NCBI RefSeq assembly: GCF_004115975.1
Contig: NZ_SDDZ01000007.1
Location: 62,001 to 126,000, forward strand
Direction of reading: 5' to 3'
DNA from: Gelidibacter gilvus
Lineage (GTDB): Bacteria; Bacteroidota; Bacteroidia; Flavobacteriales; Flavobacteriaceae
DNA: 64,000 nt
Of this stretch, positions 47,105 through 59,646 are shown in pieces. The notes under the pieces are model-generated. The model searched no databases. It was not told where the DNA came from and was given only the letters and a program-made list of their open reading frames with translations. The position numbers were made by a program, and so were the translations under genes. Within the stretch, counting starts at the first letter, position 1. The number at the start of each line of letters is the position of its first letter.

Positions 47105-47137
47105 AAAACCTTGCAGTGGTCACACATACAAGGTTTT
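47105..47137. terminator. Terminator between the beta-CASP gene and the cyanophycinase operon
   Basis: AAAACCTTG (47105-47113) pairs with CAAGGTTTT (47129-47137). On the minus strand an eight-T run follows, so it is a strong terminator for the operon that ends at 47158. On the plus strand four T follow, and it may also end the transcript of the nuclease pair. Confidence 0.8.
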
Positions 47138-47157
47138 ACTATTAAAAAAAGGGTTGG

Positions 47158-48423
47158 TTATTTTTTAATGAATTTAAAAGTTTGTTCGGATGTTTCTGAA
47201 TAAAGTTTTAAAATGTACAATCCAGAACTTAATGAAGACACATCAAGCATGTCATTGTTCAATTGTGATACCGAGAATTCTTTTCCTAAAACATTGTAAA
47301 TTTTAACCGATTTTACAGGGGTTTTTGATTTTAAGAATAACCTATCGGATGTTGGATTTGGGTAAACTTCAACATTAAGATTTTCAAATGTCGGAGTAGA
47401 TAATGTGCCACACATAGGATTCGTTCCAGCTACGGCAGCAAACACGCCCGCAGTAACCGACCAATTTTCCCAGGTGCCACCACTTCCTGTTTCCCAATCG
47501 GACAGGTCAAAATAATTGGTGCCTGCTCCTGTTCCCTGTACTTTATAGACTTTTATGGCTTCTCCTCCTCTGTTCCAGGTGAAAGGTTTGAATTTTTCAA
47601 TCGTCTCTGGTGTATTATTTGCAACACAATTCGATTGCAGGAAATAAGCAGATTCTGAACCATAAACAGCAGCTTTCCCATTAACATCTACAGTAATGGC
47701 AGTTCGTTCACTAGAAGCAATTCCAAAAGAACGTCTCTCATTATCTGCCGTATGACGTCCCATAAAAACACTCATTCGTCCCTCACGATCACGATTTGCG
47801 AAATGTGAATCGGTAATGACATCTTTCATGAACGGAATATCCAAAAAGTCATCATAGCCAATTGTGGCCCTTGCGTGATAAGGATTGCTCAAAGCTTCCG
47901 GACTGGTAATCGATCCATATTGGGCAGTGAAATAGGAACTTCCCAAAATTGCCATTCCAGCACTTGTACCGCCAATAACTCCTTTTTTGGTATTAATGAA
48001 GGTATTTAAGGCATCTTCCATGGCATTATCCTTAAAATATTTGACATAATCATATTGGTCTCCACCAGCAAACCAAATAGCTTCTGCATTGGCCACTTTT
48101 TCCAATATATAGGGATCAATGGCGGCTAGAGCATCTTCAATAACAAATGTTCGTACTGAGTTTATGGTTACTCCCAAATTCGTGTAAAAATAATTATTGT
48201 AACCGTCATCGCCAGTGGTTCTTAAAACCACCACATCCCCACCATCGGTTTGGCTCAAGAACCACTTTAAGGCATCATCTTGATCAGCTGCTCCACCCAT
48301 CAAGCAAATTCCTGCTTTATGATTGGTCGTGACATCTGTAGCATTTCCTGTAAGATATTCCGTATAATTCTGAGCAAAAAGCATTTGAATGCTCAGTAAA
48401 AATAAGAGTGTAATTTTCTTCAT
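47158..48423 (-). CDS. Cyanophycinase-family (S51) peptidase with T9SS sorting domain
   Basis: A 421-residue secreted protein: signal peptide (LFLLSIQMLFAQN), an S51-type catalytic domain (residues about 35-270), a linker region, and a type A T9SS C-terminal sorting domain (residues about 348-421, VEVYPNPTSDRLFL ... SLSSGLYILKLYS). The candidate triad is S154 (VIGGTSAGMAIL), H207 (TDSHFANRD) and E239 (GIASSERTAI), with a GGDQ loop at residues 120-123. The DSHF and SSER variants differ from the DQHF and DEAT of classical cyanophycinase. It would be exported to the surface or medium and cut beta-aspartyl polymer outside the cell. Last gene of the operon. Confidence 0.88.
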   Translation of the reverse strand: MKKITLLFLLSIQMLFAQNYTEYLTGNATDVTTNHKAGICLMGGAADQDDALKWFLSQTDGGDVVVLRTTGDDGYNNYFYTNLGVTINSVRTFVIEDALAAIDPYILEKVANAEAIWFAGGDQYDYVKYFKDNAMEDALNTFINTKKGVIGGTSAGMAILGSSYFTAQYGSITSPEALSNPYHARATIGYDDFLDIPFMKDVITDSHFANRDREGRMSVFMGRHTADNERRSFGIASSERTAITVDVNGKAAVYGSESAYFLQSNCVANNTPETIEKFKPFTWNRGGEAIKVYKVQGTGAGTNYFDLSDWETGSGGTWENWSVTAGVFAAVAGTNPMCGTLSTPTFENLNVEVYPNPTSDRLFLKSKTPVKSVKIYNVLGKEFSVSQLNNDMLDVSSLSSGLYILKLYSETSEQTFKFIKK

Positions 48424-48441
48424 AAGCCTTTAATTCTTGTT

Positions 48442-49752
48442 TTATTTCTGATTAATTAAACGATACATTAATACCGCAGTAATTTTTGCTTGGGTTGCCA
48501 CCGTTCGTAAATCGCCAGTTTCTTCAATCGTATGGTCGCCGCCACCGCCTGTTAAACCCAATCCATCAAGTGCCATATCCACATACCCTGAGGTAAAGGA
48601 GATATCAGCCGCTCCTGCATTTCTGGGATTAACTGCTTCTACTGCGCCAAAACCCAAGTCTTGACTTACCGTATCATAAACTTTCAAGAGTTTTGTATTG
48701 CCTTCGGTAAGCGCCAAAGGTGGATAGCCGTTATCATTAAAAATCAATTCTGCAGACGTGTTGGGATAATTGTTGGCAACAATTTGTTTCATGATGCCAT
48801 GCGCCTTTTCCAGTTGCTCTAGAGATGTTGCCCGAATATCGCCATGCACAATTGTCTGTTGTGCCACGACATTGTCTTTTCCGAAAGCAGTACCACCCGT
48901 GAGATCGTCATTAAGATTCAAATCGGTGCCACCAATGATAAACCCCGGATTAAAGGTCAAATCCTTTTCTTTGGATAACTGTAAATAAAATTCATTCAGA
49001 ATCCGTGAGGTTTCATAAATAGCACCAACGCCAATATCCTTAGTAAACACTTGTGATGAATGCGCTGGCACCCCTGTAACTTTCAATTGCCAATCTGAAG
49101 ATCCTCTACGGGCAACCACTATGGTTTTTGGGTTATTGTCTCCATTTTCAAAACCTAAAGCGATATCTGCACGTTTGGCGCCCTCTATCAAATCTTTCTT
49201 GGCCAATTCAATCGGTTCGCCGCTCAATTCTTCATCACCAGTCATGATTATTTCAATGGACATATCGTCTAAAACTCCAGCATCTTTAAGTGCTTTCATG
49301 GCTAATATGATAATGACATCACCACCTTTCATATCGGCAACACCAGGACCTTTCATGATATTCTCGTCTAACATGGTGTATTCCTGAAAAGGACTGTCCA
49401 ATTCAAAAACGGTATCCAAATGGCCGATCAATAAGAATTTCGGTCCTTTCTTACCTGTCCTTTTAGCGATTAAATGGCCGGCTCGTCCATAAGCTTCGCC
49501 ATTGGTCAATTCTGTTTGAAATCCGAGTTGATCCAATTCTGCCTTAAATAATTCGCCCACTTTTATCACCCCTGGAAAATTCATCGTTCCACTATTGATA
49601 TTGACCGATTTTTTGAGTAGATCAATGGCCGCCTCCGAATGCTGATCAACGGCTTTAATAATTCTCTTCTCCATTTTCCCTTTTTGTGCAAATGTCAAAC
49701 TGCTCAAGAACAGGGCTAAAAGCAGGATTGTTTTCTGTGATGTTTTCTTCAA
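48442..49752 (-). CDS. M20-family zinc carboxypeptidase/dipeptidase, secreted
   Basis: A 436-residue protein with a signal peptide (ILLLALFLSSLTFAQK). The two-zinc site is complete: H111-x-D113 (IGHLDTVFE), D140 (GPGVADMKGGD), E174-E175 (TGDEELSGE), E202 (GFENGD) and a late His in GGGGDHTIEE. The overall type is carboxypeptidase G2-like, an enzyme group that removes C-terminal Glu or splits dipeptides. It is encoded between the two cyanophycinase-family genes with 10- and 18-base gaps. In a cyanophycin route it would be the candidate for splitting beta-Asp-Arg dipeptides; that role is inference from position. Confidence 0.9.
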   Translation of the reverse strand: MKKTSQKTILLLALFLSSLTFAQKGKMEKRIIKAVDQHSEAAIDLLKKSVNINSGTMNFPGVIKVGELFKAELDQLGFQTELTNGEAYGRAGHLIAKRTGKKGPKFLLIGHLDTVFELDSPFQEYTMLDENIMKGPGVADMKGGDVIIILAMKALKDAGVLDDMSIEIIMTGDEELSGEPIELAKKDLIEGAKRADIALGFENGDNNPKTIVVARRGSSDWQLKVTGVPAHSSQVFTKDIGVGAIYETSRILNEFYLQLSKEKDLTFNPGFIIGGTDLNLNDDLTGGTAFGKDNVVAQQTIVHGDIRATSLEQLEKAHGIMKQIVANNYPNTSAELIFNDNGYPPLALTEGNTKLLKVYDTVSQDLGFGAVEAVNPRNAGAADISFTSGYVDMALDGLGLTGGGGDHTIEETGDLRTVATQAKITAVLMYRLINQK

Positions 49753-49762
49753 AATAATCGGT

Positions 49763-50620
49763 TTAATTTAATTGAAAATGTTCTCCTGGCAAATAGATAT
49801 TCAGCTGAATATCATGCGCTCCTAATTTATCGCCATGCACATTTTTTGAGCGCTTCGGATTTTTAAGTACAATGACCTGAGAATCCCCAATAATTTCAGC
49901 ATCCGTACCAATGACCAAAATTGCCGTGGCTTCATCAATACCAATCCCAAGCATCTCAGGATGCTCAATCACCGCGCTGATCAATCGGTTGTAACGACTG
50001 CGTTTTACAAAATGCTGATCGATGATCACATTGGCCAACATGCCCAATCCGGTTCCAATTTCGATATTATCTGCATCGATATTTCGGAAGGTTGATGCAT
50101 ATTCCGGATGTTTCAATTCGGCACCCGTAATCATCATCTTACTCATAACGGCTGCTCCTGCACTGGTGCCAGCAATTAAATTTCCATTATTATAGGCATG
50201 ATGAATGGCTTTTTCAATATCCGTTCCGGCAACAATATTCATAAATCGGTTTTGGTCGCCTCCAGAAATATAAATCATTTTGGCATTTCTGATGGAATCC
50301 ACTTTGGATTTTGTTAGCACCTCACCCTTCACGAAATCGAGTCCATAAATATTTTTAAGACCTTTCTCGATAAACTGTTTTCCCGAATAATAGATTGCTG
50401 AATCTGGTTCAGCACTTGACATTGGCAGAATAATACCATAACCCGATTGATCAATACCTGATTCTTTAATAATACGATCCAACATGGATGATGGTCTTGA
50501 ACCACCTCCTATAATCACGAGTTTTCCTTTGCTTGGAGCATCCTGTGCACTTATGGGAGTGATGCTGAACATACTCCCAATACATACACAAATTGCTACT
50601 AATCCTTTTAAATTCATCAT
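49763..50620 (-). CDS. Cyanophycinase (S51 family), periplasmic or secreted
   Basis: A 285-residue protein close to the classical cyanophycinase length after removal of the signal peptide (cleaved near ISAQDAPS). The catalytic set is canonical: S153 in IAGTSAGAAVMS, H203 in IIDQHFVKRSRYNR and E230 in GIGIDEATAILV, with GGDQ at residues 120-123. The H-to-E spacing of 27 equals that of characterised cyanobacterial cyanophycinase. The family releases beta-Asp-Arg dipeptides from cyanophycin. No sorting domain is present, so it probably acts in the periplasm after SusC import. The start shares one base with the stop of the preceding gene. Confidence 0.9.
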   Translation of the reverse strand: MMNLKGLVAICVCIGSMFSITPISAQDAPSKGKLVIIGGGSRPSSMLDRIIKESGIDQSGYGIILPMSSAEPDSAIYYSGKQFIEKGLKNIYGLDFVKGEVLTKSKVDSIRNAKMIYISGGDQNRFMNIVAGTDIEKAIHHAYNNGNLIAGTSAGAAVMSKMMITGAELKHPEYASTFRNIDADNIEIGTGLGMLANVIIDQHFVKRSRYNRLISAVIEHPEMLGIGIDEATAILVIGTDAEIIGDSQVIVLKNPKRSKNVHGDKLGAHDIQLNIYLPGEHFQLN

Positions 50621-51753
50621 TATTGACGTTTTCCAATGACGATACCATTGGTACCAACTGTTGTTTGATAATAGATTTCTGCGTCACTACCATCTAAGTT
50701 GGCTCTCATCATGGTATAGGCTCTCCGGTCTCCCCAATAAATTTTTTCTTCATTTGGGTCATAAGCCAATCCATAAACCACACGTGAAACGCCCACAGCA
50801 ATTGTAGAAACATCATTGCCATCTAAATTGGCCGACTTGATTCTAATATCTCCAGAAGCAACATATTCATCATAATAAATTCGATTTCCAACCACTATGA
50901 TACTAGCGCCTTCAACGCCCGGAAGAATCTCTTTTTCCCCAGTTCCATCTAAATTTTTAGACCAAACGCCACCATCATAATTAATCCAGTACAATTTTCT
51001 ATTTACCAAATCAATCGCCAATCCGTCAGGATCATTGGCTTGACCGGTTACGAAATCTTCTTTTTGGGAAAGATCTGTACTGCCCAAATCGGCACGTTGA
51101 ACACCTGAAGTTGTGTTCCAGTAAATTTTATTTTCCTGATAATCAAATGCCATCGCAATAGGTTTATCCAATCCGGTTCTGAACTCCTCAAAATTACTAC
51201 CATCTAAATCGGCTCTGAAAATTTTATTTGCAGCATAATCACTTATGTACAATTTATTATTTAAAGTATCCATAGCCATACTGTAAGAGGTTTCAGTTGC
51301 TAAGCCATTTATCTGTGTGAAAATTGGCGCTAGATTATTGATAAGTCCCTGATATACCTTGGTGCCATCCGTATAATAAATTGGCGTTCCGGTAGCATTA
51401 GGATCTTTGACCACAATGGTTTGTGAAGATTCCTTTATTTCTAAGGAACCAGAAGTGGTCACAACCAAATTTACAACATACACGCCAGCCTCATCATAAA
51501 CATAGATTGGATTGGCCTCAGAAGATGACTCCCCATTTCCAAAATTCCAATAGAAAGTAGCATTTCCTACCGTTCCTGGCACTATGGACGTATTGGTAAA
51601 CGTGACCGTTGCCGGGGCAAACTCATCATTACTTATGGCATAGGTAAATGAAGGCACCGTACTTGCTGGTGGCACCGGAAAACCATCATCAGAACAAGAC
51701 TGAAAACAGATACCGATACTCATTAAAAAGAATATAATAAACGAATTTTTCAT
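50620..51753 (-). CDS. Lipoprotein with PKD domain and YWTD beta-propeller (second copy)
   Basis: A 377-residue lipoprotein (SIGICFQSC lipobox). A PKD domain covers residues about 30-120 (ATFYWNFGNGESSSEANPI), and a propeller of YWTD/LDL-receptor-like repeats follows (KIYWNTTSGVQRADL, KLYWINYDGGVWSKNLDG, KIYWGDRRAYTMMRANLDG). Such propellers bind proteins or peptides. It is similar in design to the neighbour at 51760. In a SusCD operon these genes occupy the place of SusE/SusF-type surface binding proteins, so surface capture of the polymer is the likely role. Confidence 0.85.
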   Translation of the reverse strand: MKNSFIIFFLMSIGICFQSCSDDGFPVPPASTVPSFTYAISNDEFAPATVTFTNTSIVPGTVGNATFYWNFGNGESSSEANPIYVYDEAGVYVVNLVVTTSGSLEIKESSQTIVVKDPNATGTPIYYTDGTKVYQGLINNLAPIFTQINGLATETSYSMAMDTLNNKLYISDYAANKIFRADLDGSNFEEFRTGLDKPIAMAFDYQENKIYWNTTSGVQRADLGSTDLSQKEDFVTGQANDPDGLAIDLVNRKLYWINYDGGVWSKNLDGTGEKEILPGVEGASIIVVGNRIYYDEYVASGDIRIKSANLDGNDVSTIAVGVSRVVYGLAYDPNEEKIYWGDRRAYTMMRANLDGSDAEIYYQTTVGTNGIVIGKRQ

Positions 51754-51759
51754 AGTTTT

Positions 51760-53103
51760 TTATTTAATTAATGCGATACCTCTTACACTTCCCAAACCAG
51801 ATTTCAATACTTCTTTGTTGGATCCATCCAAATCAGAACGATAGATTTCTCCCGTATCACGTCCACCCCAGTACAATTTATTTGCTTCATTATCTATTTC
51901 AATTCCGTAAATACGGGTTGCTCTTTCAGCAATGGTTTCAACATTTGAACCGTCAAGATTTGCTCTTTTCAATGATCGTTTATCCTCAAAATAGATTTTA
52001 TCATTGACCATATCAACAGCCACGGAATAGCCATAAACTCCGGAAAGAATTTTAGTAGGATTTGATCCATCCAAATCCGCTATATAAAGATCTTCTACAT
52101 CAAGATCATAAGCATACAATTTTCCGTTTTTAAGGTCTAGCGCCAAGCCTGTCAAAGTGACGTCCGGGATGTTCAAAATCCCTATTTCGACATTTGATCC
52201 ATCTAAATCTGCTCTAGAGATATTACCTACTGAATCTGACCAATACACTTTATTACCAGCAACATCCAAGGCAACTGCATAAGGATCTTCAATGTTTTCA
52301 ACAATAACTTCTGCTTCAGTACCATCAGGATTCATTTTCCAAATGTTCCCAAATGGCGTGGTATAAAAGTCAGAGAAATAAATTTTATCATTGACCTCAT
52401 CGTAAGCCATTCCAACCCCAGATTTACCAACCAAATCGAACACATCAGTAATGGTCCCGGAACCGTCCAGGGTCAACTTTCTCATAAAGTCATCAGTATT
52501 GTCTAAATAATATAATTCTGCCGGTGCTTCTGGCGCCATGGCAATAATGACGTCTTTGGTAAATGTATTGGAACCTCCTACGCCATTGGCAGTAAGCGTT
52601 ACTTTAAATGTTCCTGCTGCCGCATACGTAAACGTTGGATTTTCTTCAGTAGAAGTTGAGTTATTAGCATCTCCAAAAGACCAACTGTAACTTGTAGCGC
52701 CTAAAGAGGCATTAGTGAATTGCACCGGAATTTTAGCACTCAAATTGTCTTCATCAGCTACCGTAAATCCGCTGGCTGGTGTAACCTTGATTTCCATGCT
52801 GGAAATAGTAGAGCCGCCTGCACCTGTTGATACCAAACTCACCAAAAACACATCGCTGGATTGGTATGACTTTTTAGGTGCTACTTGATTGGAGGTGGTT
52901 CCATCTCCAAAGCTCCATAAGTATGCCGTCGCATTTTGTGAGCTGTTGGTAAATTGAATGTCCTCACCTATTTTGACTTCTGTTGCACTCGCAGTAAACT
53001 CTGCTTGTGATTGTGGTGGCGTTGCATCATCATCATTTTGGCATGAAAATAATGCTAAAGAGAAGACGCTTATTAGTATGTAATTTAGAAATTTAGTTTG
53101 CAT
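51760..53103 (-). CDS. Lipoprotein with two PKD domains and YWTD beta-propeller (first copy)
   Basis: A 447-residue lipoprotein (LALFSC lipobox followed by acidic QNDDDAT, a surface-export-like signal). Two PKD domains (AYLWSFGDGTTSNQVAP and SYSWSFGDANNSTSTEENP) occupy residues about 30-190. The rest is a YWTD-type propeller (KIYFSDFYTTPFGNIWKM, KVYWSDSVGNISRADLDG, KLYWGGRDTGEIYRSDLDG). It follows susD by 32 bases and precedes its shorter relative by 6. The pair probably arose by duplication and forms part of the surface complex. Confidence 0.86.
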   Translation of the reverse strand: MQTKFLNYILISVFSLALFSCQNDDDATPPQSQAEFTASATEVKIGEDIQFTNSSQNATAYLWSFGDGTTSNQVAPKKSYQSSDVFLVSLVSTGAGGSTISSMEIKVTPASGFTVADEDNLSAKIPVQFTNASLGATSYSWSFGDANNSTSTEENPTFTYAAAGTFKVTLTANGVGGSNTFTKDVIIAMAPEAPAELYYLDNTDDFMRKLTLDGSGTITDVFDLVGKSGVGMAYDEVNDKIYFSDFYTTPFGNIWKMNPDGTEAEVIVENIEDPYAVALDVAGNKVYWSDSVGNISRADLDGSNVEIGILNIPDVTLTGLALDLKNGKLYAYDLDVEDLYIADLDGSNPTKILSGVYGYSVAVDMVNDKIYFEDKRSLKRANLDGSNVETIAERATRIYGIEIDNEANKLYWGGRDTGEIYRSDLDGSNKEVLKSGLGSVRGIALIK

Positions 53104-53135
53104 AAGATCTATTTTTTAAATATGATGATTAGTTT

Positions 53136-54464
53136 TTAGTAGCCAGGATTTTGTGTCATTCCTGGGTGTTTATTGGTTTGGATTTCATCAGATGGAATTG
53201 GAAACAAGGTTTGGTTAACATTGTTTACATTTGGCAAAACAGCAATTGCTCTTCCTGTTCTTACCAGATCAAACCATCTGTGGCCTTCAAAAGCAAATTC
53301 TATTCGTCTTTCCTTTTCAATGATTCTCTGTAATTGAGCTACAGAAGATTCTGAAGTGGGCAATAATTGTGCTCTCAATCTAATCTTGTTGATATCACTT
53401 TGGATCGCGGCTATATTCGGTGCCGTCTTGTTCGCTTCAGCTTCTGCCCTGATCAAATACACATCTGCCAATCTTAAGACGATGACATTATCGGCGCCAA
53501 GGCTTAAATCGTCATATTTAATGGCATAAGCACTTGTTCCTGCAAAAGCGATGCTTGCCGCATAGCGTGAATCTCCAGTTTCGTAAGCTGCAAGTAAATT
53601 TGCCGATGGTTCTACTTCCCTTCTTCCGTTTAGAGAGGTCGGGAAATTATATTCTGCAATCCTGTTGCGTTCGGTTTGCGAAAAATAGATCTCAAAAATG
53701 GATTCTGAAGATTGGTCTGCCGCAAAAACATCCGCATAATTACCCAATAAGGTATAACCGCCATTATCAATGACATCCGTAGCTAAGGTTACGGCTTGAG
53801 CGTAATCGCCTTTATACAAGAACACCCGTGCCAATAAGGCCTTTGCTGCGTATTTAGAAGTTCTTATTTTATTACCAGATGCTGATAGATTATCTGATGC
53901 AAACACTAAATCATTAATGATTTGGCTATACACTTGGTCTACCGGATCTCTTGGCGCATCTAAATTGCCCACTCCTACTGTTGGCATTACTTTAATAGGA
54001 ACGGCGCCAAAATAATTCAGTAAATTGAAATGGTTAAGCGCTCTAATAAAATAAAGTTCACCTAAAGCGGCATTCTTTTCGGCATCGGTCATATTCTCAA
54101 TACCTGGAACTTTAGCTATGACGTTGTTGGCAACGTTGATGCCACCGTACATAATATTCCACATCCCTCCAACGGATCCGTTTTCAGGAAGAATATTATT
54201 GTTGGCAATCTCTCTGTATTCACTGGCGGTTGCACCAATGGGATGGGATAAATTATCGGCGGCTAAATCAGGAAAAATCACATTTGATCTTCCATAATAA
54301 CTAAAAGCCTGAAAATAAGAATAGGCTCCTAAAATGCCTTTGTTAACATCCTCTTTATTTTTAAATGCTGTACTTGCTTCAATAGAGCTTTTTGGTTCCA
54401 CCTCCAAAACATCACAGGACCATACCGCTATCATAACAAAAATCAATAAAATACTCTTTTTCAT
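53136..54464 (-). CDS. SusD/RagB-family lipoprotein of the cyanophycinase operon
   Basis: A 442-residue SusD homologue with lipobox AVWSC. It has the N-terminal TPR-like segment (LGELYFIRALNHFNLLNYFG), the C-terminal family block RRIEFAFEGHRWFDLVRTG and the ending MTQNPGY. It is shorter than the fucose SusD (586), mostly through a compact binding region. As lid of the SusC at 54469 it should bind whatever this system imports; the enzymes that follow point to a peptide polymer rather than a glycan. Confidence 0.95.
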   Translation of the reverse strand: MKKSILLIFVMIAVWSCDVLEVEPKSSIEASTAFKNKEDVNKGILGAYSYFQAFSYYGRSNVIFPDLAADNLSHPIGATASEYREIANNNILPENGSVGGMWNIMYGGINVANNVIAKVPGIENMTDAEKNAALGELYFIRALNHFNLLNYFGAVPIKVMPTVGVGNLDAPRDPVDQVYSQIINDLVFASDNLSASGNKIRTSKYAAKALLARVFLYKGDYAQAVTLATDVIDNGGYTLLGNYADVFAADQSSESIFEIYFSQTERNRIAEYNFPTSLNGRREVEPSANLLAAYETGDSRYAASIAFAGTSAYAIKYDDLSLGADNVIVLRLADVYLIRAEAEANKTAPNIAAIQSDINKIRLRAQLLPTSESSVAQLQRIIEKERRIEFAFEGHRWFDLVRTGRAIAVLPNVNNVNQTLFPIPSDEIQTNKHPGMTQNPGY

Positions 54465-54468
54465 CTTT

Positions 54469-57400
54469 TTAAAGTTTTAAGTTAATTCCTAAGGTGAATG
54501 TTTGTGCTTGTGGATAGGTAAAGAAATCAGTTCCAATAACCGAATTGTCATCACCTCGATAATTAACCTCAGGATCCAAACCTGTATAATTTGTAAATGT
54601 GAATAGGTTTTGGGCGCTTAAATACACGCGGATAGAGCTAAAGAATGTTTTTCTCAACATGTCAGCGTCCAACGAATACCCTAAAGTGACATTTTTAAAC
54701 CTCAAATAAGAACCATCTTCAATAAACCTTGAAGACACCCTTTTGTTTTGTGCTGCTTTTACAGGATCTGTCGTAGCTCTCGGAATATCTGTAATATCTC
54801 CTGGCTGTTTCCATCTTCTTAAAATTGCGGTGGTTTGGTTATCGCCACCTTGAAGGGATTCCAAAAACAATCGGGATCCATTAAAAACATCATTGCCTTG
54901 TGAACCTTGTAAAAAGATGCTTAAGTCAAAGCCTTTGTAAGAAAAATTATTGGTCAATCCGTAAATAAAATCTGGATGCGGATTACCAACGATGGTTCTG
55001 TCTTCGGAAGTGATAACGCCATCAAAATTGGTATCGGCATAAACTATATCTCCTGTGGACGGGTCAACGCCCAGCGATTTATAACTGTAGAAAATTCCAA
55101 TAGGTTGACCTTCCATAATTCGGTTCCCACCTCTTCCAATATCATCAATGGGTTGTCCGTTATAAAGTTCCAATACTTTATTTCGGTTTCCAGAAATATT
55201 GAATTGTGTGTTCCAAGTGAAATCGCCAACAAAGTTTCGAGTCTCTAAAGTCAATTCGACGCCTTTATTCTCAACGCTTCCTACGTTTTCAGTAATTGAC
55301 GAAAAGCCGGAGGTTGGTGGCAAGGGTCTGCTCAACAATAAATCTTTGGTCTGCTTATTATAATAATCTCCGGTAAGCATTAAACGATCATTGAACAAGC
55401 CCAAGTTGAAACCGACGTTAAATTGCGCCGTACTTTCCCACTTTAAGTCTGGGTTGGGGATATTGCTTGGATAAATTCCTGACATACCGCCATAAACTGT
55501 CGTACTGTAGAGTTCAGAAAACAAGAACGGACTGATATCGTCATTCCCTGTTAGACCATAACTCACACGAAATTTCAAGTCGGAAAACGTATTTGAGTCT
55601 TTTATAAAATCTTCCTCAATAACACGCCACGCTACGGAAGCTGCAGGGAAAAATCCTGTTCTGTTGTTTTCTCCAAATTTGGTGGATGTATCAAATCGTC
55701 CAGTGAATGTTGCGATATACTTATCGTCAAAATTATAATTTAAACGTCCAAAATAGGAACGTAACCCAGATTCGGTAGCACCAGAACTCGCAGAAACAAT
55801 CGTCGCCGCAGAATTGAGATATTCTAAACTGTCATCGGCAAAATCCTGTCCTCTAATATAAGAGGAGGTTCTTTCATAACTTTCAAAACTGTAGCCCAAT
55901 AAAGCATCCAATTTATGTTTTCCTAAACTCTTATTATAGGATAAAAGGTTATTGGAAACGATGTTAGTCACGTTGCTATAGGTTTCAAACCCAAGCCCGT
56001 TGTATTTTGCACCTTGAACAGTTTTGGTCGATTCGTAAGAATGCTCTCTAAAGTTCATGAAATCCACACCCCATTTGGTGGAAAACTTAAGGTTATCAAT
56101 AATTTTCCAATCCAAATAAAAGTTAGAGTTGGTTCTATAAGAATAATTGACTGCAATAGCTTCATTTGCGATAGACAGTGCATTCGCATAAGGTCCCGAC
56201 TGATTATATGATCCATCTTCATTAAACACTGGAAAAATTGCCGGTGTTGAAATCCCATTCGGTAAAGGTCCGTGAAGCGTTTGATCACTTTCAACCCTGT
56301 TAGTCACAGCATAAGTCAATCCGATGCTGGTACCAATAGTTATTTTATCAGAAAGTTGATGGTCAATATTGGCACGTGCATTTAATCGGCGATAATCCGT
56401 GCCAATCAAGATTCCTTCTTGGTCGAATAATGTTCCACTGAGAAAAAACTTGGTCTTTTCTGAACCTCCAGTTGTAGAAACTTCGTAACTACTGATTGGA
56501 GCCGTTCTAAAAATAACATCTTGCCAATTGGTATCCACCGTGATATTGTCCATTTGTTCTTGTGTGAAAACCGTCGTTCCAGTCAGATCATTTCTATATT
56601 CCATCCACTGTCTGGAGTTCAACATATCCAATTTATTCCAAGCGCGTTGCATCCCAGAATACACGTTAACATTAACAACCGATTGTTGCGCTTTACCGCG
56701 TTTGGTCGTAATCAATACAATCCCGTTAGAAGCCCTAGCGCCATAAATTGCAGTTGCCGAGGCATCTTTCAAAATACTGATGGAAGCAATCTCACTAGGG
56801 TTTAAATCTGATAAGGCACTAGACCCTTGACCAGAATAACTTAACTGACCGTAATCTCCCATAGTTACAGGAATACCATCAATAATATAAAGCGGTTGGC
56901 TAGAACCACTAATGGAAGTTAATCCACGAATCCGCACAGACATTTCACCACCTGGCGTTCCTGAGTTTTGCATCACCTGAACGCCAGAAGACTGCCCTTG
57001 AAGAATACCATCAACCGTTGACACTGGCAAATCCTCAATTTGTTTTGAGCTGATTGAGGTAACGGCATCACTGATTAATGACTTGCGCTCGGTACCATAT
57101 CCAATGACGACAATTTCCTCTAAAGCCATACTATCCGAAACCATGGTCACATTCACCGTAGAAAGACCTACAATAGAGACTTCCTGAGTAACAAAACCCA
57201 AATAAGAAATGACAAGAGTCGTGGCATTTTCTGGAACGGACATTTCAAAATTCCCGTCAAAATCTGTAGTCACTCCCCTGTTGGTCCCTTTAATCTGGAC
57301 AGTAGCACCCAATAATGGCACTCCGGTGTCGTCAAAAACAGTTCCTTTTATTGGACGGTCTTGTTGGTTTTGGCCAGTTGATTGGATAACTTCTGCACTC

Positions 57401-57762
57401 ACATCCTTTTTAATGACCACCTGCCTAACGTCTATGTTGTAGCTCAGATCGGTGTTTTTTAAAGCAGCATCCAAAATAGTGGCAACAGTAGCATTTTTCA
57501 GCTTTAGGGATACTTTATGCTTTAAAACATCATCTTTATAGAAGAATAGAAATTCACTTTTATTTTGAATTTCTTTAAATAATTCTTCCAAGGAAACATT
57601 TTTTACGTTGATATCCATCTTGGTCTGCGCTTCTGAGAAATTCGCAAAAGCAGAACTCAAGCCAAGGGTCATTAGTAATAGGAAAACTCGCATCATATGT
57701 ACCAAATAGTATCTAAAAGATTTTATCCTTTTAAAAGAATAAAGGTTCTCATTTTTATTCAT
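54469..57762 (-). CDS. SusC-family TonB-dependent transporter with STN signalling domain
   Basis: A 1097-residue protein. After the signal peptide comes an STN domain (residues about 45-125, INVKNVSLEELFKEIQNKS), then a carboxypeptidase-regulatory-like domain (IKGTVFDDTGVPLLGATVQI), the signature VVIGYGTERKSLISDAV, the plug (PLYIIDGIPVTMGDYGQL, LKDASATAIYGARASNGIV) and the barrel. The STN domain contacts FecR-type anti-sigma factors, and such a pair is encoded directly upstream, so substrate binding would switch on its own operon. It heads the operon susC-susD-two lipoproteins-cyanophycinase-M20-cyanophycinase. An antisense RNA is predicted opposite its leader. Confidence 0.95.
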   Translation of the reverse strand: MNKNENLYSFKRIKSFRYYLVHMMRVFLLLMTLGLSSAFANFSEAQTKMDINVKNVSLEELFKEIQNKSEFLFFYKDDVLKHKVSLKLKNATVATILDAALKNTDLSYNIDVRQVVIKKDVSAEVIQSTGQNQQDRPIKGTVFDDTGVPLLGATVQIKGTNRGVTTDFDGNFEMSVPENATTLVISYLGFVTQEVSIVGLSTVNVTMVSDSMALEEIVVIGYGTERKSLISDAVTSISSKQIEDLPVSTVDGILQGQSSGVQVMQNSGTPGGEMSVRIRGLTSISGSSQPLYIIDGIPVTMGDYGQLSYSGQGSSALSDLNPSEIASISILKDASATAIYGARASNGIVLITTKRGKAQQSVVNVNVYSGMQRAWNKLDMLNSRQWMEYRNDLTGTTVFTQEQMDNITVDTNWQDVIFRTAPISSYEVSTTGGSEKTKFFLSGTLFDQEGILIGTDYRRLNARANIDHQLSDKITIGTSIGLTYAVTNRVESDQTLHGPLPNGISTPAIFPVFNEDGSYNQSGPYANALSIANEAIAVNYSYRTNSNFYLDWKIIDNLKFSTKWGVDFMNFREHSYESTKTVQGAKYNGLGFETYSNVTNIVSNNLLSYNKSLGKHKLDALLGYSFESYERTSSYIRGQDFADDSLEYLNSAATIVSASSGATESGLRSYFGRLNYNFDDKYIATFTGRFDTSTKFGENNRTGFFPAASVAWRVIEEDFIKDSNTFSDLKFRVSYGLTGNDDISPFLFSELYSTTVYGGMSGIYPSNIPNPDLKWESTAQFNVGFNLGLFNDRLMLTGDYYNKQTKDLLLSRPLPPTSGFSSITENVGSVENKGVELTLETRNFVGDFTWNTQFNISGNRNKVLELYNGQPIDDIGRGGNRIMEGQPIGIFYSYKSLGVDPSTGDIVYADTNFDGVITSEDRTIVGNPHPDFIYGLTNNFSYKGFDLSIFLQGSQGNDVFNGSRLFLESLQGGDNQTTAILRRWKQPGDITDIPRATTDPVKAAQNKRVSSRFIEDGSYLRFKNVTLGYSLDADMLRKTFFSSIRVYLSAQNLFTFTNYTGLDPEVNYRGDDNSVIGTDFFTYPQAQTFTLGINLKL

Positions 57763-57769
57763 AATTTTG
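57762..57769 (+). promoter_or_regulatory. -7 box of a predicted antisense RNA
   Basis: TAATTTTG fits TAnnTTTG on the plus strand, opposite the susC start. No clear TTTG -33 box lies 19-23 bases upstream, which weakens the call. Start of transcription would be near 57776. Confidence 0.35.
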
Positions 57770-57775
57770 TTTTAG

Positions 57776-57852
57776 TGGTTAATATTGCTGATTTACAGTG
57801 GTGTTGATTTTTTACGGCTAGAGGGTGTTGGCGCATCTTCTAGCTTTTTTTT
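57776..57852 (+). ncRNA. Predicted cis-antisense RNA against the susC leader
   Basis: On the plus strand a -7-like box (57762-57769) is followed about 50 bases later by a hairpin (arms 57817-57827 and 57834-57844; 11 pairs including two G-U, 6-base loop) and eight T (57845-57852). The predicted transcript is about 77 nt and antisense to the leader just upstream of the susC start codon. The G-U pairs form only in the plus-strand RNA, so the hairpin is best in this direction, and no plus-strand gene lies before it. Bacteroides has a known class of antisense RNAs of similar size at this position in sigma/FecR-controlled loci (DonS type). Confidence 0.45.
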
Positions 57853-57885
57853 AATGAAATTTTCTGTTTAATGGTGTTCTAGTTT

Positions 57886-58947
57886 TTAGTTAATGATTAG
57901 TTGATTGTCTTGAGTTAAATGATATTCAAATTCTGAAGATTCAGTAGATTTAATAGTTTGCATGACATGTTCAATAGTTTCCTTGACATCCAAATATCCT
58001 GAGAAGGTTTCGTTCGCCAAGTTGTCATTATTGATGATGATTTCTACATTATAATATCGTGAGATTTTTTTCATGATGGATTTTAGCGAGTCGTTTTTGA
58101 AGATAAAAATACCATCTCGCCATGAAAAATAAGGTTCAGTAGCGACTGATTGGGTTTTGACCGCTCTGTCATCCTTATCAAAAGTAGCCAAAGTTCCTGG
58201 AGTGATTTTGATGTGCTTTTGGGAATTGAAAAGCTTATTTTCTGTCACATTAATTTGAATACTTCCACTTTGTAACACGGTATAGATGGCCTGGTCGTCA
58301 TTGTAATTGCTCACATTAAAGATAGTTCCCAATACTTCAATTTCATGATGTTCAGATTTGACCATAAAAGGCTGCTTCTGACGGTGAGCCACTTCAAAAA
58401 TAGCTTCTCCTTGAAGATATACTTCTCTTTTATCTTCTGAAAACTGCGCTGGAAATATCAATTTCGAACCTGAGTTCAACCAAACTTTACTTCCATCTGA
58501 AAGTACGATTTCTGAACGTTTTCCGAACGGCACAATTAGGGTGTTAAAAACCGGTTGGTTTTTATGTGATGTTTTTTGGTTTATAGAATTCTCGTTCCCA
58601 ATCTGCACTTCCTCTCCAGTACTAGAATAACTGATGGCCGAATGGTCTTCAGTTATCTCAATATTTTGATCATCACTGAGTACAAGTTGTACTTTACCTG
58701 ATGATTCCAAGTCTTTTACTGTTTTGGCAAAGACTTCAATGGGTGAAGGATGAGATGTTGGCGCATTGAAAATTCCTATGGAAAGAAAAATTACAACGAC
58801 AGCTACGCTAACTCCAATTCCATATTTCAATAATCTCTTACGTTTTATGTAACCGTACACAGAATTTGAGATGCGCTGTTTTAATTGCGCCTTCTCCTCT
58901 TTTGAAAGATGTTTAAAATTTATATTTTTCTGAAAATTATTATCCAT
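57886..58947 (-). CDS. FecR-family anti-sigma factor
   Basis: A 353-residue single-pass inner-membrane protein: an N-terminal cytoplasmic part of about 40 residues, a membrane segment (GIGVSVAVVVIFLSIGIF), the FecR domain (VPFGKRSEIVLSDGSKVWLN, then GEAIFEVAH and EVLGTIFNVSNY) and a C-terminal DUF4974-type domain (KNDSLKSIMKKISRYYNVEI). It holds the ECF sigma factor until the STN domain of the SusC signals. The gene lies between the sigma gene and susC on the same strand. Confidence 0.95.
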   Translation of the reverse strand: MDNNFQKNINFKHLSKEEKAQLKQRISNSVYGYIKRKRLLKYGIGVSVAVVVIFLSIGIFNAPTSHPSPIEVFAKTVKDLESSGKVQLVLSDDQNIEITEDHSAISYSSTGEEVQIGNENSINQKTSHKNQPVFNTLIVPFGKRSEIVLSDGSKVWLNSGSKLIFPAQFSEDKREVYLQGEAIFEVAHRQKQPFMVKSEHHEIEVLGTIFNVSNYNDDQAIYTVLQSGSIQINVTENKLFNSQKHIKITPGTLATFDKDDRAVKTQSVATEPYFSWRDGIFIFKNDSLKSIMKKISRYYNVEIIINNDNLANETFSGYLDVKETIEHVMQTIKSTESSEFEYHLTQDNQLIIN

Positions 58948-58992
58948 GACACTATCTAAACAGATTATAAAACACAGTTTTTTTAATGCATA

Positions 58993-59016
58993 ACATTAAA
59001 ACATACCGCGTCCTAT
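58993..59016 (-). promoter_or_regulatory. Element shared with the GH95 upstream region
   Basis: Plus-strand reading ACATTAAAA, then CGCGTCCTAT, 46-69 bases before the fecR start. It is nearly the same as 4009-4030 upstream of the GH95 gene. It could be a promoter or operator for fecR, which is 105 bases away from the sigma gene and so may be transcribed separately. Confidence 0.3.
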
Positions 59017-59052
59017 TAGTATAAGTCAGATAGTCTTAGTTTATAGACACTT

Positions 59053-59646
59053 TTAATGAAAAAAGTTATAAAAGAATGATAAAAAGAAAATTCCCAAGCT
59101 ATAAAGCTGCTTTCTCAAGATTTTGATCGCCCTATAAATAATGGTTCTAGAAGTTGCAACGGAAACATTCATAATGGCAGCAACATCTTCATAAGAATGC
59201 TCATGGGTAAACCTCAAAGACAAAGCTTTTCTTTGTTTCTTACTCAATAAGGTGATGGCCTTTGCCAATTTGTAAGCGCGATCGTTTTCAAATTCCTCGG
59301 CGCAAATACGGTCTTCAATAGAATTTTCACTTTGTTTATGATCCTCCTCTTGGCTATAAGGAACAAACGAACGGCTTTTGTTTTCAACTTTAAGAATGTT
59401 GTTTTTTAAAGATCTGAAGAGATAAAAAGTTACATTATCTGTGGCGGCAAGAGTTTTTCTGTATTTGTAAAGATTCAAGAACAGATCATGAATGGCATCC
59501 ATTACTTGGCTTTTATCGGAAGAAAACTGCATGCCATATGCAAACAATTCATCCACATAAATATCATAAAGATCACCCATAGCGCGAACATCACCATCCT
59601 TTAGCTTTGTCCATAAGACCAGTGTTCTATTTTTATGTCGCTCCAA
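59053..59646 (-). CDS. ECF-type RNA polymerase sigma factor
   Basis: A 197-residue sigma factor. Region 2 is recognisable (GDLYDIYVDELFAYGMQF, AIHDLFLNLYKYRKTLAAT, VTFYLFRSLKNNIL) and region 4 has the helix-turn-helix HEHSYEDVAAIMNVSVATSR. This is the type paired with FecR and SusC in Bacteroidota. The C-terminus ends in an unusual hydrophobic, Phe-rich tail (LGIFFLSFFYNFFH) that could contact the membrane or FecR. It probably directs RNA polymerase to the susC promoter. Confidence 0.93.
   Translation of the reverse strand: MERHKNRTLVLWTKLKDGDVRAMGDLYDIYVDELFAYGMQFSSDKSQVMDAIHDLFLNLYKYRKTLAATDNVTFYLFRSLKNNILKVENKSRSFVPYSQEEDHKQSENSIEDRICAEEFENDRAYKLAKAITLLSKKQRKALSLRFTHEHSYEDVAAIMNVSVATSRTIIYRAIKILRKQLYSLGIFFLSFFYNFFH

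Follow-up and report, generated by a model that had tools for sequence, protein, structure and literature searches.

A SusCD locus of Gelidibacter gilvus predicted to scavenge cyanophycin, with an exported M20 peptidase in the dipeptidase position

We analyzed a stretch of 64,000 nucleotides from the genome of Gelidibacter gilvus (contig NZ_SDDZ01000007.1, positions 62,001 to 126,000), hereafter named the window. On its minus strand, a SusC/SusD transporter is encoded together with two hydrolases of family S51, one of them a predicted cyanophycinase, and a peptidase of family M20. An earlier note on this DNA had placed nine genes as listed below, with an extracytoplasmic function (ECF) sigma factor/FecR pair ahead of the operon, and had guessed that the substrate was cyanophycin or another beta-aspartyl polymer. 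All nine genes were confirmed by the open reading frame (ORF) list and by Pfam/NCBIfam, and sigma-70 region 4 and FecR domains were found in the regulatory pair. The features are as follows.

59053..59646, minus strand: ECF sigma factor, TTG start (TIGR02937 65.4, above its cut-off of 42.9; TIGR02985 85.6, below its cut-off of 126.4)
57886..58947, minus strand: FecR anti-sigma factor (PF04773, PF16344)
54469..57762, minus strand: SusC, TonB-dependent transporter with STN domain (TIGR04056 943.8 bits, cut-off 368; STN 39.4)
53136..54464, minus strand: SusD lipoprotein (SusD domains; lipobox visible in the sequence)
51760..53103, minus strand: PROP2, lipoprotein with two PKD domains and a YWTD-type propeller, probable surface binder (Pfam, AlphaFold2, Foldseek)
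50620..51753, minus strand: PROP1, lipoprotein with one PKD domain and a DUF5050 propeller-like region (Pfam, ORF list)
49763..50620, minus strand: S51A, exported predicted cyanophycinase (TIGR02069, residues, nearest solved chains)
48442..49752, minus strand: exported M20 peptidase with dimerisation domain, TTG start (Pfam, residues, tree, structure model)
47158..48423, minus strand: S51T9, second S51 hydrolase, with a type A sorting domain of the type 9 secretion system (T9SS) (Pfam/NCBIfam, residues)
47105..47137, minus strand: terminator-like stem-loop of 33 nt, then a U-run (fold against shuffles, z -1.57)

From susC to the gene of S51T9, the successive gaps measure 4, 32, 6, -1, 10 and 18 nt, and they are wider at the regulator end (123 nt between fecR and susC, 105 nt between the sigma gene and fecR). 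Between fecR and susC, a 13-pair stem-loop with a T-run is also seen on the plus strand, antisense to the operon, at 57816-57845 of the window. The strong terminator announced by the earlier note is present as a stem-loop with a U-run at 47137-47105, although the 121-nt stretch shows a modest gain in stability over shuffled sequences (z -1.57; 17 of 200 shuffles do as well), and the stem-loop is missing from the list of a simple terminator scan. The TIGR04056 SusC and the SusD domains are those of a SusCD nutrient transporter. PROP2 was modelled by AlphaFold2 with a pLDDT of 89 and a pTM of 0.62, and its top Foldseek matches are the propellers of LRP2 and LRP6. As the note had said, no glycoside hydrolase, lyase or sulfatase family was found above cut-off by Pfam/NCBIfam, in a scan limited to the nine locus proteins, with the flanks outside it.

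S51A passes the curated cyanophycinase model TIGR02069 (163.7 bits, cut-off 126.6), and the solved chains closest to it are cyanophycinases. Residue roles were assigned to both S51 proteins via PMC3235067, in passages of which Gln101, Asp172, Gln173, Arg178, Arg180 and Arg183 are described as critical for cyanophycinase, beside the catalytic Ser132. In the alignment, S51A has the complete set of nine residues, namely the catalytic triad Ser153/His203/Glu230, which had been read correctly from the sequence beforehand, and the pocket Gln123, Asp201, Gln202, Arg207, Arg209 and Arg212. Across the 125 S51 rows closest to S51A, hardly any variation is seen at these nine positions. S51T9 keeps eight of the nine residues, with a Ser at the place of Gln173. 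Its T9SS type A tail, also claimed earlier, was recovered by Pfam/NCBIfam, the test being confined to the window's own S51T9 among the second S51 proteins. The window's genome (G000) encodes SprA of the T9SS, as well as ornithine aminotransferase.

We then surveyed the neighbourhoods of S51A relatives. Matches to the S51A protein at E <= 1e-30 occur in 46 of 395 phylum-sample genomes, the window's own included. These 46 neighbourhoods (L044-L089) were taken together with the best 80 of 574 confirmed relatives with names; two phylum-sample and three named loci in which no S51A-class ORF was called were dropped, leaving 44 and 77 usable loci (121 together). SusC and SusD both lie in the fetched flank of 16/44 phylum-sample loci and of 46/77 named loci, a set that leans to SusCD loci because 14 of the 16 members of its query alignment (A1) are SusCD-linked; this makes 62/121 loci together. 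When gaps of at most 400 nt are allowed, an unbroken same-strand run leads from S51A to SusC or SusD in 10/44 and 44/77 loci, respectively. Neither SusC nor SusD was found at 20 loci of the cyanophycin synthetase gene cphA (19 of them with a CphB-type S51) or at 20 loci of M20 homologues, in control stretches of 14-16 kb, shorter than the mostly about 20 kb of the S51A loci. For 16/44 against 0/20 cphA loci, Fisher P = 0.0013, kinship not being taken into account. SusC-SusD beside an exported S51 cyanophycinase, as found at those 62 loci, is a usable signature, which can be divided into sub-types according to the dipeptidase.

Neighbour families were identified by naming one representative each by NCBIfam and the remaining members by hidden Markov models built from these loci. 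The representatives of IadA (TIGR01975 488.9, cut-off 331), of ornithine aminotransferase RocD (639.7, cut-off 378) and of CtlX (447, cut-off 334) score above their cut-offs, while those of the YfcC "putative basic amino acid antiporter" (402, cut-off 500) and of arginase (216, cut-off 227.6) score below. The representative of the beta-aspartyl peptidase (IaaA) has 331 with Asparaginase_2 (PF01112) and 299.5 with NCBIfam, below its cut-off of 567. RocD homologues occur at 12 of the 126 loci, and the 40 control loci give one 31%-identity match; other arginine-catabolic genes among the 126 loci are those of CtlX (2), of arginine deiminase-like proteins (2) and of arginase (1). Neighbours of these kinds are those that breaking beta-Asp-Arg down to Asp, Arg and ornithine would require. 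Together with the S51 residues, these neighbours in relatives leave the cyanophycin or beta-aspartyl substrate well supported, as the earlier note had guessed. A generic peptide or glycan polysaccharide utilization locus is disfavoured by the same residues and recurring neighbours.

Among side observations on these loci, L226, L227, L236 and L244 have a sigma-like gene between IadA and S51A. In L198, from a metagenome-assembled genome (MAG), SusD is split over two ORFs with an ambiguous residue near the second start, possibly an assembly fault. L229, titled as a Halorubrum MAG, has the same SusD, without any difference, as the Bacteroidales locus L231, and is probably a mis-binned contig.

A dipeptidase candidate is found within 8 kb in 37 of the 62 SusCD loci: IaaA in 17, IadA in 8 and M20 in 12. 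The three are mutually exclusive, none of the 37 loci having two kinds. In the window, neither iadA nor iaaA is among the nine locus genes, and the M20 peptidase takes the place that belongs to IaaA or IadA in many relatives, a point that the earlier note had not singled out. Eleven relatives belong to the same sub-type (Gelidibacter algens, Arcticiflavibacter, Subsaximicrobium, two Aequorivita, three Winogradskyella, two Flavobacteriaceae MAGs, and the genome G368). All 11 keep the order FecR-SusC-SusD-PROP2-PROP1-S51A-M20, with M20 directly after S51A as in the window, and in 10 of them a second S51 of 426-430 aa follows M20. In the window and these relatives alike, the M20 is exported and no YfcC gene is present in the locus.

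Absence of YfcC, the presumed dipeptide carrier, goes along with predicted secretion of the dipeptidase candidate more generally. Over the 121 S51A loci, YfcC is absent within 8 kb of 17/18 secreted dipeptidase candidates and present at 41/55 non-secreted ones (Fisher P 2e-7, uncorrected for kinship, the secreted ones coming from two or three lineages). Briefly, secretion was called by a crude N-terminal hydrophobicity test, the borderline cases L071 and L208 being counted as non-secreted; the sole exception among secreted candidates, L076, looks like a mis-called start. A strict rule by which a cytosolic dipeptidase means YfcC was rejected, as 14 of the 55 non-secreted candidates are without YfcC within 8 kb. 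In the window's genome, no YfcC homologue was found at E <= 1e-10, and G368 has one distant copy (35%), outside the locus. Many of the loci L064-L089 display a second design, with a PepT-like M20, an exported S51A, YfcC, an RpiR-type regulator and a TonB receptor; this receptor, present in 18/44 usable phylum-sample loci, resembles SusC along no more than a short stretch.

The window's M20 has the M20 fold with its dimerisation domain. Residues H111, D140, E174, E175, E202 and H407, the putative metal and catalytic residues by comparison with carboxypeptidase G2 (CPG2), are identical in all 33 M20 rows compared. CPG2 is its nearest solved structure, by sequence and by fold (24-25% identity in Foldseek), and PahZ2 (7ljh), a poly(aspartic acid) hydrolase, is another solved structure similar to the model (Foldseek rank 8, 18% identity); the substrate of the M20 itself is a predicted one. 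Chemically, a beta-aspartyl dipeptide differs from a beta-alanyl one by an additional carboxylate, and beta-alanyl dipeptides are substrates of M20 carnosinases. On the M20 tree, 14 S51-linked M20s lie on one side of a branch (support 88/87), 13 of these at 100/98. In a contrast that is not unbiased, because the named linked rows come from the S51 search and the others from the M20 search, R377 is Arg in 14/14 linked and 2/19 unlinked rows, while S388 is Ser in 14/14 linked and Ala in 19/19 unlinked rows. The counterpart of R377 in CPG2 is the Arg in the motif EERTGGGTD. One further S51-linked M20, in L157, is separate from the 14-member clade; it has the Arg at 377 and Ala at 388, and its S51, at 64.7, does not reach the cyanophycinase cut-off.

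The history of the transporter was approached through SusD. On a tree of 65 S51-linked and 22 unlinked rows, the linked rows are clustered without forming one clade (5 label changes against 19.8 in shuffles, 0/500 as low), near-copies contributing to the clustering. The smallest well-supported sets holding the window's SusD (2, 7 and 11 rows) contain S51-linked rows only. The earlier note had held that its reading would fail if S51 genes were not conserved with this SusCD; a check, run in part, went both ways. The one close relative of SusD found by search, in G368 (70%), is S51-linked, and in 12 further genomes, where SusD matches reach 32-39% at best, the S51-linked copy comes first in 5 and another copy in 7. 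A single origin of S51-linked SusCD was thus not borne out, and the 5 label changes together with the 5/12 best matches suggest that SusCD was probably recruited to the cyanophycin task more than once.

Elsewhere, the window's genome encodes a cyanophycin synthetase (1244.8 bits, cut-off 850), in a cluster (L090, G000:C24:812600-832500) that holds cphA1, IaaA and a CphB-type S51 lacking a signal peptide. The scavenging locus is therefore separate from the internal store, and the bacterium probably both stores and scavenges cyanophycin. A fourth S51 protein is encoded at L001. According to parts of PMC10206079, the isoaspartyl dipeptidases of Firmicutes and Bacteroidota remain undiscovered, for cphA1 genomes. 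As the two sub-type genomes checked, G000 and G368, have IaaA near cphA, the M20 clade does not directly fill this gap. Among the 20 fetched Bacteroidota cphA loci, 15 have an IaaA-like gene, short and longer forms counted, and one has IadA. In nine of them (L173, L175, L176, L178-L183), a short IaaA-like protein of 280-281 aa is encoded near cphB/cphA; that of L180, the one checked, has 263 bits with PF01112 and only 121 bits with the curated IaaA model. This short protein is a candidate for the dipeptidase called undiscovered in Bacteroidota.

We consider it highly probable that the locus serves to scavenge extracellular cyanophycin, a poly-Asp with beta-linked Arg. S51T9 would be exported by the T9SS and cut insoluble cyanophycin outside the cell, SusD and the two PKD/propeller lipoproteins would bind the polymer or its fragments, and SusC would take fragments in, using TonB energy. 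In the periplasm, S51A would complete the conversion of fragments to beta-Asp-Arg, which the exported M20 may then cut into Asp and Arg. Both amino acids could enter by ordinary carriers, which would make a dipeptide carrier such as YfcC unnecessary. The operon would be turned on upon substrate binding, through the SusC STN domain, FecR and the ECF sigma factor.

Several points weigh against this scenario. S51T9 is under the TIGR02069 cut-off (69.4 against 126.6), and among the 54 rows closest to it, Arg178 is found in 33 and Glu201 in 32 (Asp in 20). S51A is uncommon, with 2/149 genomes of the family sample, own genome included. Neither a recognised dipeptidase nor YfcC lies within 8 kb in 17/62 SusCD loci, including L233 from a Salinivirgaceae MAG, and the survey counts are raw, without phylogenetic correction. 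The closest solved relatives of SusC, 8aa4/9sje, are described as "SusC homolog" (E 9e-170), the peptide transporter RagA being farther (2e-109); sequence kinship of SusC thus gives no pointer to peptides, and was set aside as a substrate clue. The locus might serve another beta-aspartyl or aspartate-rich substrate (isoaspartyl-damaged proteins, polyaspartate or other peptides), and cyanophycin to a minor extent if at all, and both the range of beta-aspartyl dipeptides accepted by IaaA and IadA, as reported in parts of PMC10206079, and the resemblance of M20 to PahZ2 would suit such a role. The intact cyanophycinase pocket of S51A and the arginine-catabolic genes of some relative loci point away from it, and we judge it improbable. 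It is less probable still that S51 and M20 genes arrived by chance in a generic SusCD peptide locus: SusCD pairs are so numerous (up to 50 SusD matches per genome) that some adjacency is expected, but none is seen at the 40 control loci, gene order is fixed in the 11 relatives, and S51-linked SusDs are clustered on their tree, near-copies helping.

Within the cyanophycin scenario, the predicted function of M20 on beta-Asp-Arg comes from its position in the locus. We propose tentatively, and give it somewhat less than an even chance, that the M20s of this exported clade act in Bacteroidota as dedicated dipeptidases for beta-Asp-Arg, a further solution next to IaaA, IadA and M14-type enzymes, and that splitting in the periplasm frees these loci from the need for a dipeptide carrier in the inner membrane. 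M20 homologues with 43-60% identity are found in other genomes, and 19 of the 20 fetched (from 44 matches) have no S51 in 15-16 kb. Moreover, G000 has three Asparaginase_2 genes outside the SusCD locus, one of which encodes an exported lipoprotein IaaA (L311:7378-8559), so that the dipeptide could be cleaved even without M20; this gene adjoins that of a very large putative lipoprotein (1863 aa). These facts, and the closeness of CPG2, would fit an M20 acting as a general carboxypeptidase or dipeptidase on alpha-peptides, with the dipeptide split by the exported IaaA elsewhere or by a cytosolic IaaA, an explanation to which we give close to an even chance. It accounts less well for the single clade of 14 M20s at S51 loci (L157 apart), for its markers R377 and S388, and for the constant place of M20 immediately after S51A; in addition, G368, with the same locus, has a single Asparaginase_2, which lies near cphA and has no apparent signal peptide.

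Cyanophycin is a nitrogen store of cyanobacteria, and knowledge of the heterotrophs that reclaim it, and of their means, is relevant to the recycling of nitrogen in blooms and mats. The M20 clade offers a concrete new candidate for the splitting of beta-Asp-Arg on the scavenging route. If the proposal is true, two scavenging designs would coexist, one in which the dipeptide is imported and then split, the other in which it is split and its products are then imported.

Taken as a whole, the earlier reading is partly supported, its claim to a new kind of SusCD locus being the part that fell, in view of prior reports. Passages of PMC10206079 cite a "cyanophycin utilization locus" of the Bacteroidetes strain L21-Spi-D4, Salinivirga (Ben Hania 2017, doi 10.1111/1462-2920.13639), name a cluster of Flammeovirga pacifica WPAGA1 as cyanophycin-scavenging, and mention M14-type enzymes as isoaspartyl dipeptidases. 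A TonB receptor near a cyanophycinase gene is described for Citromicrobium in part of PMC3400609, and excerpts of PMC6243061 report a Balneolaeota strain with T9SS-tagged and plain S51 proteins, similar to those of Salinivirga, in another context; PMC11573002, PMC12661447 and PMC12590107 contribute nothing decisive. The M20 sub-type is what is new here, loci of the general kind being already in print; no report of this sub-type was found in the literature searched, subscription papers being mostly outside its reach. The abstract of the Salinivirga study reportedly calls the transporter homologous to polysaccharide utilization loci.

Compared with known enzymes, S51T9 is like CphE of Pseudomonas in being a secreted S51 with a hydroxyl residue for Gln173 (Thr in CphE, Ser in S51T9, the former from passages of PMC3235067), whereas the T9SS tail is a feature of S51T9. 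As cited in PMC10206079, the L21-Spi-D4 locus likewise combines cyanophycinase genes and a transporter for scavenging in a member of the Bacteroidetes, but it includes iadA. The window has the cyanophycinase gene and, with gaps of at most 32 nt, the transporter in the same cluster; as the locus lacks iadA and iaaA and has an exported M20, it is classed as a variant rather than as a canonical cyanophycin utilization locus. In our survey, the Flammeovirga cluster is L267, with the order S51-SusC-SusD-PROP-S51-IaaA-YfcC-S51-RocD. It thus uses IaaA and YfcC, where the window uses an exported M20.

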